DNA of 64,000 bases, taken from assembly GCA_902531765.1 (NCBI GenBank), contig CACAFC010000005.1, positions 1-64,000 of the forward strand, given 5' to 3'. Source of the stretch: an uncultured Pelagibacteraceae bacterium (GTDB lineage: Bacteria > Pseudomonadota > Alphaproteobacteria > Pelagibacterales > Pelagibacteraceae). The translations under genes were made by a program, and so were the position numbers. How positions within the stretch are numbered: position 1 is the first letter of the stretch; every line of letters begins with the position of its first letter. This document shows positions 34,861-39,574 of the stretch, one piece after another. The notes beneath the pieces are model-generated. The model was not told the DNA's origin, ran no database searches, and worked only from the letters and a program-made list of their open reading frames with translations.

Positions 34861-34941
34861 TACATACAATTTAGGGTTTAAATAAGCAATTTCAGTTAAC
34901 TTATTTTATAAATTGTCAGTGGTTTTAATTAAGAAAAATTT

Positions 34942-35295
34942 GCCAGATAAACTATAAGCCGGGTTCTGTCATTTAAACCTATCATTTCTCTAGGTTTGAA
35001 ATCACTTTCAAACTCAAGCGACTAACCCAGGTGACTAGCCAAGAATTGCTTTTAGTTTTTCAACAGTGTCACCTCTACTTAGTCTTGCTCCCAGTGGGGT
35101 TTTCCAGCGTTCATTGTTACCAATTGAACCGGTGTGCTCTTACCACACCTTTTCACCCTTGCCATGTTATGGCGGTTTATTTTCTGTGGCACTATCCCTA
35201 GGGTTGCCCCCGCCAGGTATTACCTGGCACTGTATCCTTGCGGAGCCCGGACTTTCCTCTTTAATTAATTAAAGCGATAAGTCATTTATCTGGCC
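34942..35295 (-). ncRNA. rnpB: RNase P RNA (bacterial type A)
   Basis: About 354 nt on the minus strand. The 5' end has GAGGAAAGTCCGGGCTCC (P4/CR-I region) and the 3' end ACAGAACCCGGCTTATAG, both universal in bacterial RNase P RNA. GCCAGATAAA near the 5' end pairs perfectly with TTTATCTGGC at the 3' end to form P1, which fixes the boundaries. It is the catalytic subunit that trims tRNA 5' ends, including the two tRNAs 2.5 kb away. It lies in the 550-bp gap between mraZ and the amidase. The plus-strand frame inside it is not a gene. From 34861 to 34941 I see nothing else. Confidence 0.96.
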
Positions 35296-37538: not shown

Positions 37539-37615
37539 TGGTGGGCCCGCCAGGACTCGAACCTGGGACCAATACATTATGAGTGTACTGCTCTAACCAA
37601 CTGAGCTACAGGCCC
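37539..37615 (-). tRNA. tRNA with CAT anticodon (tRNA-Ile2 more likely than elongator Met)
   Basis: A 77-nt cloverleaf with encoded CCA. The acceptor stem GGGCCTG pairs with CGGGCCC, the D-loop AGTTGGTTA has GG, the anticodon loop is CTCATAA and the T-loop TTCGAGT is canonical. It is not the initiator, since the first base pair G-C is intact and the GGG/CCC anticodon-stem pairs are absent. The variable segment TTGGTC matches bacterial tRNA-Ile2, read as AUA after lysidine modification by TilS; elongator Met remains possible. Confidence 0.9.
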
Positions 37616-37669: not shown

Positions 37670-37744
37670 TGGTGGGCCGTGTTGGTTACGCTCCAACTAC
37701 CCCTGCAATGTCAATGCAGTACTCTACTATTGAGCTAACGGCCC
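37670..37744 (-). tRNA. tRNA-Val(GAC)-like gene with aberrant D- and T-loops
   Basis: A 75-nt cloverleaf with encoded CCA. The acceptor stem GGGCCGT/ACGGCCC is 7/7 paired, the anticodon stem CTGCA/TGCAG 5/5 with loop TTGACAT (anticodon GAC, valine), and the T-stem GTTGG/CCAAC 5/5. The D-loop is AATAGTA, 7 nt with no GG. The T-loop is AGCGTAA, without the TTC-purine-A motif. The D-loop to T-loop contacts that make the L-shape elbow therefore cannot form in the normal way. It starts 3 nt after the rpoD stop codon and is probably cut out of the rpoD transcript. It is 54 nt upstream of the CAT tRNA, which is normal. Confidence 0.75.
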
Positions 37745-37747
37745 AAG

Positions 37748-39574
37748 TTAACTCTCTAAGAAACTTTTGAGTTGTTTAGATCTACTAGGATGCTTTAGTT
37801 TCCTTAAAGCTTTTGCTTCAATTTGACGAATTCTTTCTCTAGTTACTGAGAATTGTAATCCAACCTCTTCTAAAGTATGGTCGGTATTCATTCCAACTCC
37901 AAATCTCATTCTTAAAACTCTTTCTTCTCTTGGAGTTAGAGTTGATAATATTTTTGTTGTCGCTTCACCTAAATTTGATTTAATTGCCTGTTCTAATGGA
38001 GCTAATGCTTTTGTATCTTCTATAAAATCGCCCAGACTACTATCCTCCTCATCGCCCACTGGTTTTTCTAGTGAGACTGGCTCTTTTGAAATTTTTAGAA
38101 CTTTTCTAACCTTGTCTAGAGGCATACGAAGTTTTTTTGCTAATTCTTCAGGGGTAGCTTCTCGGCCAAATTCACTTAAAATTAGTCTCTGTGTTCTTAC
38201 AATTTTATTGATTGTTTCAATCATATGTACTGGAATTCTTATTGTCCTTGCTTGATCGGCAATCGATCTGGTGATTGCTTGTCTAATCCACCATGTTGCA
38301 TAAGTTGAAAATTTATAACCTCTTCGATATTCAAACTTATCTACTGCTTTCATCAATCCAATATTTCCCTCTTGAATTAAATCTAAAAATTGAAGACCTC
38401 TATTAGTATATTTTTTTGCAATTGAAATAACTAATCTTAAATTTGCCTCTACCATTTCCTTTTTAGCAATTCTTGATTCTTTCTCCCCTTTTTGAACTCT
38501 GCTGACTAGCTTTTTAAAGTCAGTTACCGACATTCCAAGTTTGTGACTTATTTCAATTAATCTTTCCCTAATATTTTTAAATTCTTCTTTATTTTTCGTA
38601 AAAAATTGTTTCCATAAAGTGTTAGTATCTAAAAACTTTTTTAAATTGGGGTTTATTTCATTACCTATATAAAACTTAATAAACTCATTTCGCGGTATTT
38701 TTTGATCCATTGCAAGTCTTAAAAGATTTCCCTCTAATGAAATAATTTTTTTGTTTTCAACATAATGTTTTTGTACAAGTTCCTCCAGTACAGATGGGGA
38801 TAATTGCAAAGATTTTATATTTTCTAAAATATCATTGACAATTTTTGTATATCCTTTTTCTTTTGACTGAGAAAAGGTCTGTGAATTAAGAACACAATCT
38901 AATTTCTCTTTTTGATATTTTATCAGCTTACGGTACTCTTTTGTAAGTATATGAACTGTTTGTAAAACTTTTGGTTTAATTTCAGTCTCCATTGCAGCAA
39001 GTGTTGGGTTAAAATCATCATCACCCTCATCATTAGAATTTTCTTCTTTTTCATCTTCTCCAGCATTCTTCTGTTTAGCACTTGGACCAGTGTTCTCATC
39101 TTCCATGTAGTTAGTATCAATATCAATTATTTCTCTAACTAATATTTCATCTTTTTGTAATTTTTCATCCCATTCAAATAATTGTTGTGCAGTAATGGGG
39201 CTTTGGGATAATGCAATTAACATCACATCTTTTCCTGCCTCAATTCTTTTTGCTATTGCGATCTCACCCTCTCTAGAGAGTAATTCAACACCTCCCATCT
39301 CTCTTAAATACATTCTAATTGGATCATCGCTTTTTTCGATTGTTTTACCCTCTTCTTTAGAAGAATTTTCTTTTTTTCTAAGTACCCTAAAGTCAGATTT
39401 CTTTTCAACTAATACTATTTTCTTATCTAAGATATGAATAAAAGCTTGTGATAAATTTTCGTCGGAAAGATTCCTTTTTCCAAGAGATTTGCTTAATTCC
39501 TCATGAGTAATAAAACCCCTGTGGGTCCCCCGACCCATTAATCTAGCAAATGATTTAGTAATAATTCTTTCCAC
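37748..39574 (-). CDS. rpoD: primary sigma factor RpoD (sigma-70)
   Basis: A 608-residue group 1 sigma factor. It has a region 1.1-like N-terminus (1-65), region 1.2 ([22 protein letters not shown] near 83), an acidic non-conserved insert (about 165-190), region 2 ([27 protein letters not shown] and [17 protein letters not shown] near 375-430), region 3 and region 4.2 ([27 protein letters not shown] near 570). It directs transcription of housekeeping genes. The start is GTG at 39574; an ATG at codon 13 is an alternative. Two tRNA genes follow, the first after only 3 nt. dnaG lies 67 bp upstream. Confidence 0.97.

Follow-up and report, generated by a model that had tools for sequence, protein, structure and literature searches.

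A tRNA-Val(GAC) gene of Pelagibacteraceae with two matched swaps in its predicted elbow

The tRNA-Val(GAC) gene in a window of 64,000 nt (the whole stretch of DNA analysed) from an uncultured Pelagibacteraceae bacterium revealed a predicted elbow that departs from the usual one at two of its three near-universal contacts. Each is swapped on both sides, with A18:G55 in place of G18:U55 and A54:U58 in place of U54:A58. Within the genus, 21 genomes (its own and 20 others), each a different species-level genome, carry the gene without a single letter changed. On the sequence evidence it very probably encodes an elongator tRNA that functions with a compensated elbow, rather than a decaying gene or a regulator.

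The full sequence, 75 nt with CCA, is GGGCCGTTAGCTCAATAGTAGAGTACTGCATTGACATTGCAGGGGTAGTTGGAGCGTAACCAACACGGCCCACCA (window 37744-37670, minus strand). ARAGORN reads it as tRNA-Val(gac) at 37670-37744 on the minus strand, the Rfam RF00005 covariance model gives it 53.6 bits, where the curated cut-off is 29, and its predicted MFE fold is an exact cloverleaf (-28.6 kcal/mol, z = -3.3 against shuffles). The stems are fully paired, and U8, U33, the 7-nt anticodon and T loops and the CCA are all present. An earlier note on this DNA had given these coordinates, perfect stems, encoded CCA and loop sequences, all of which sequence, ARAGORN and Rfam bear out, together with its description of the neighbouring CAT tRNA as canonical.

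Features of the window around the tRNA-Val(GAC) gene
Feature	Position	Strand	Basis or remark
tRNA-Val(GAC), alternative elbow, CCA encoded	37670..37744	-	75 nt; ARAGORN, Rfam RF00005, cloverleaf MFE, identity in 21 genomes
D-loop AATAGTA	37725..37731	-	sequence; alignment with canonical orthologues
A18 (usually G)	37728	-	sequence and alignment with canonical orthologues
G19 (normal)	37727	-	sequence and alignment with canonical orthologues
Anticodon GAC, reads GUU/GUC	37710..37712	-	sequence, ARAGORN
T-loop AGCGTAA	37686..37692	-	sequence; covariation
3' CCA, encoded	37670..37672	-	sequence
CAT tRNA with canonical elbow, adjoins tRNA-Val(GAC)	37539..37615	-	sequence, ARAGORN, Rfam
rpoD (sigma-70) ORF	37748..39574	-	stop 3 nt before the 5' end of tRNA-Val(GAC)

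Standard numbering assigns to the D-loop the residues A14 A15 U16 A18 G19 U20 A21 and to the T-loop A54 G55 C56 G57 U58 A59 A60. The canonical bacterial elbow is built from G18-Psi55, G19-C56 and T54-A58 (PMC4810234, PMC7912444). Alignment with canonical orthologues places U8, A14, G19, A21 and C56 among the retained residues, and with both G19 and C56 (37690) kept the outer elbow pair is intact. Only positions 18, 54, 55 and 58 are altered, plus 60, which is usually a pyrimidine and here is A. Thus, where the earlier note had called all three elbow contacts impossible, G18-Psi55 and T54-A58 are indeed changed and G19-C56 is not. The bases that would bear T54, Psi55, Gm18 and m1A58 are absent, so the tRNA cannot carry those modifications. 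The cloverleaf, U33, purine 57, G53-C61 and CCA are likewise shared with canonical elbow tRNAs, and the overall topology is presumably the same.

This anatomy suggests a way in which the elbow could hold. Residue A18 would slot between residues 57 and 58 and pair with G55, and the 54/58 pair, now A54:U58, would still close the turn of the T-loop. The L shape would be preserved, as would the flat face of G19-C56, the surface at which RNase P, the ribosome and further RNAs read a tRNA (PMC4810234). The tRNA would consequently be processed, charged and used normally without T54, Psi55, Gm18 or m1A58.

Elsewhere in the window, a class A RNase P RNA was found at 34939-35293 (minus strand, 295.7 bits). 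The CAT tRNA is probably a precursor of tRNA-Ile(CAU), with a modified C34, and not an elongator tRNA-Met, as its acceptor stem is like that of tRNA-Ile(GAU) and the genome has three CAT tRNAs. The stop codon of rpoD is so close to tRNA-Val(GAC) that the tRNA is probably cut from the rpoD transcript, presumably by RNase P; the rpoD C terminus lies 1-21 nt upstream of the Val tRNA in 22 of 45 Val loci.

Conservation was surveyed in 92 genomes of the SAR11 order that are at least 93% complete, with the genome of the window, at 91.6%, counted within; Val(GAC) was read in 70. The alternative loops are found in 59 of the 61 Pelagibacter genes, and named Pelagibacteraceae records carry the same pattern. 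The remaining two (G223 and G264) are canonical on both sides. One lies directly behind rpoD (G223) and the other adjoins the CAT tRNA as in the window (G264), and both have the acceptor stem of the window gene; shared neighbours and stem make these loci orthologous to that of the window. Homologues with ordinary loops, taken by the earlier note as a pointer to sequencing error or local decay, therefore do exist, but since both loops are ordinary there they argue for coordinated switching and not decay. On that switch and the identity in 21 genomes, sequencing error and local decay were rejected. In g11 (G080) and g12 (G325) the loops are AAAAGTA/AGCGTTA, still with A18, A54, G55 and U58, and in a SAR11 sister family, f2, Val(GAC) is canonical.

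Several irregular tRNA-like stretches were seen in passing. One low-completeness genome (L059 1450-1545; G028:C48) has a CCA-bearing T-arm with the loop AGCGTAA that lacks a recognisable D- or anticodon arm, and this may be a tRNA-Val remnant or an unusual RNA. Truncated 3' parts of tRNAs, two of them Thr(UGU)-like, lie at G000:C1:261685-261742, L056 1635-1692 and G089:C1:838387-838444, and may be remains of integration at tRNA genes.

The elbow is shared by tRNAs that the cell must use. The sole tRNA-His(GUG) of the same genome (G000:C2:74797-74867), which ARAGORN missed, has loops identical to those of Val(GAC), and the sole tRNA-Phe(GAA) has AGGAGTA/TGCGAAT, that is, A18:G55 with a normal U54:A58. 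In a closed relative in a single contig (G089), 33 tRNA matches include a single gene each for His and Phe, and these two show the respective elbows as well. As the only decoder of CAU and CAC, tRNA-His must function in translation. Within the genus tRNA-His varies, with GGCAGAA (G54:G58) and A18 in two genomes; the T-arms of Val and His are identical in some genomes, and gene conversion between them may have occurred. The loops AATAGTA/AGCGTAA are also found on tRNA-Thr(GGU) in f2 and in another alphaproteobacterial family, f9. Among 387 genomes sampled across the class, only SAR11 and f9 were found to have the complete pattern.

The same loops are common in phages. Stretches of the form AATAGTA..GGAGCGTAACC number at least 120, and in fact more, in IMG/VR; among the matches listed they bear more than 20 anticodons, their stems are good in nearly every case, and a 3' CCA is present in most. 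A cultured example is the annotated tRNA-Met of Acinetobacter phage Ac42 (Ac42t06; NC_014660, Straboviridae, 80657-80731), with AATAGTA/AGCGTAA. The phage records bear no resemblance to the window gene, leaving a phage-donated origin unsupported. A finder that recognises tRNAs by stems only, blind to loop sequence, recovered 979 tRNAs in 1.11 Mb of the viral loci fetched by this loop pattern, compared with 6 in shuffled sequence. In those with 7-nt D-loops, residues 18-19 are GG with a TTC.A T-loop in 138 of 139 and with ATC.T or ATC.A in 16 of 16; they are AG with TGC.A in 30 of 38, with GGC.G in 17 of 18, and with AGC.T in 120 of 120, the last mostly selected by the search itself; TTT.A goes with GA (8 of 8). 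Unique tRNAs with 7-nt D-loops and without the selected pattern comprise 75 with A18:G55, 152 with G18:U55 and 12 others, a Fisher p of about 4e-52 that is only indicative, as tRNAs of related phages are not independent samples.

A designed contrast set the D-loops AATAGTA and AATGGTA against four T-loops. IMG/VR was scanned for seven of the resulting eight combinations, whereas counts for the remaining one, G18 with TTCGA, come from the fetched loci only; all were filtered to genuine, unique tRNAs. The ratio of A18 to G18 was 80/0 with AGCGTAA, 0/60 with ATCGTNA, 30/1 with TGCGANT and 2/82 with TTCGANN. Most of the 119 raw matches of A18 with TTCGA were chance or attachment-site matches, two being left after the stem filter, and the 27 raw matches of G18 with TGCGA were mostly like tmRNA 3' ends, with one real tRNA. 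In viral loci L591-L615, matches to AATGGTA..GGTGCGATTCC look like 3' ends of phage tmRNA with G55 in the T-loop.

In these sequences residue 18 tracks 55 and not 54/58: residues 18 and 55 change together, as G:U or A:G, and 54:58 varies on its own as U:A, A:U or G:G. In a total of 1,918 unique phage tRNAs, positions 54:58 hold U:A in 1485, A:U in 279, G:G in 68, A:A in 47 and C:A in 21, and residue 60 follows it, being a pyrimidine with U:A (1454/1485) and A with A:U (252/279) or G:G (64/68). The pair 19:56 is G:C in 729 phage tRNAs with 7-nt D-loops and A:U in 29. Because the loci were fetched by pattern, the class frequencies are biased and it is the conditional pairings that constitute the evidence. 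Further elbows were seen in viral loci L220-L738, namely G54:G58 with A18:G55 (GGCRGNA), A54:U58 with G18:U55 (ATCGTNA) and A19:U56 (a TTT T-loop with GA). Unselected G55 tRNAs match canonical ones, with 20.43 of 21 stem positions paired against 20.42 and a CCA in 75% against 71%, and thus are not decaying. The matched swaps, their conservation and the phage covariation together lend strong support to the alternative elbow that the earlier note had listed among its readings.

The elbow-modifying enzymes were considered next to this pattern. TruB, the near-universal pseudouridine synthase for U55, appears to be missing from the genome of the window (G000), where no match to TruB_N (PF01509) was found, the domain being detected in 14 of 14 controls. 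It is absent from 16 of 16 Pelagibacter genomes tested, closed ones included (see also loci L503, L499 and L504), and from those members of g5, g6, g9 and g12 that were tested; it is present in g7, g8, g10, g11, f2 and f9. The gene order in g7 is infB-rbfA-truB-rpsO and in the closed Pelagibacter genome G012 infB-rbfA-rpsO, where only 7 nt separate rbfA from rpsO, so by gene order truB is cleanly lost in Pelagibacter from between these two genes. Its loss may relax the demand for U55. As a necessary cause of the swap it was rejected, alternative elbows being found in TruB-positive g11 (Val) and in f2 and f9 (Thr), and presumably also in phages of TruB-positive hosts.

The swap could have been selected, in phages and hosts alike, for hiding a tRNA that still translates from enzymes that read the elbow, such as TruB, TrmA/TrmFO, TrmH or a defence nuclease. 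This would add a reason to the compensated elbow without contradicting its anatomy, and it fits the frequency of the swap in phage tRNA arrays, the alteration of all the substrate bases (54, 55, 58 and 18) and the loss of truB. Against this, the canonical elbow is retained by the majority of tRNAs in phages and in SAR11 alike, the alternative also occurs in TruB-positive SAR11 and f9, and we know of no elbow-specific nuclease; we consider such selection quite unlikely. A bolder form would see a second, orthogonal elbow dialect of bacteria and phages (A18:G55 combined with either A54:U58 or G54:G58) that preserves the L shape, could be neither read nor modified by TruB, TrmA/TrmFO, TrmH, TrmI or elbow-targeting nucleases, and was selected for that, with the loss of truB in Pelagibacter as part of the same shift. 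This too is unlikely.

Early decay would have the loops drift because tRNA-Val(UAC), present in canonical form in this genome, reads all GUN codons and makes Val(GAC) dispensable. The letter identity across species, the perfect stems, the joint change of both loop sides and the share of GTT and GTC, the codons of Val(GAC), in the window ORFs (520 of 910 Val codons) all speak against it, and on the tRNA-His case free drift under such cover was rejected; decay is thus highly improbable. Known non-translational tRNAs can have changed elbows, which favours a regulator or a donor for peptidoglycan or other aminoacyl transfer that avoids EF-Tu or the ribosome, but the same elbow is borne by many phage specificities and by the single-copy tRNA-His, and a peptidoglycan-type tRNA would be expected as an additional gene, next to another with its anticodon that serves translation, whereas only one Val(GAC) gene was found among 31 tRNA matches in this genome and the 33 of G089, so that this role has hardly any likelihood. 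The earlier note's suggestions of escape from EF-Tu or ribosome use, of a tRNA-like regulator and of freedom to change under Val(UAC) find no support, given the full elbow on tRNA-His and half of it on tRNA-Phe, both indispensable.

The compensated elbow has partial counterparts. Zagryadskaya, Doyon, Kotlova and Steinberg reportedly selected suppressor tRNAs with randomised elbows in 2003-2004 and obtained substitutes for 54-58 and 18-55, possibly including A18-G55, so the A18-G55 geometry may be known from the laboratory; those were laboratory selections, whereas the Val(GAC) and His elbows belong to natural, essential tRNAs. The study PMC7566577 describes A54/A58 T-loops in eukaryotic initiator tRNA and tRNA-Ala(AGC) and reports such pairs as absent from bacteria. 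Like Val(GAC), these are natural functional tRNAs with the 54/58 pair replaced and a purine at 60, but they keep A58, with no 18/55 change described there (G18:U55 is kept), and Val(GAC), with U58, A18 and G55, falls outside that class. The tRNA-Pyl and type II mitochondrial tRNAs (PMC7609411) are natural tRNAs without the G18 G19 or T-Psi-C motifs; in these the D/T contact is lost or replaced and loop sizes are often altered, whereas Val(GAC) has normal loop sizes and pairs swapped one for one. The passages searched in these reviews and in the A54/A58 study (PMC4810234, PMC7912444, PMC7609411, PMC7566577) do not mention A18:G55 or A54:U58, and no description of these pairs or their phage equivalents was found in the literature searched, which covered few subscription journals. 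Their natural, systematic use thus appears undescribed so far.

Common teaching holds the G18-Psi55 and T54-A58 contacts to be near-universal. In the tRNAs described here matched pairs take their place, both in single-copy tRNAs of a bacterial group that ranks among the most abundant in the sea and in a great many tRNAs of phages. The alternative elbow explains why a tRNA finder can miss genes, as with tRNA-His, and its study brought to light a genus-wide loss of truB. Collectively, these tRNAs form a mutational series provided by nature, and its code can be read; through it, the rules that govern the elbow and the requirement for T54 and Psi55 become directly testable.
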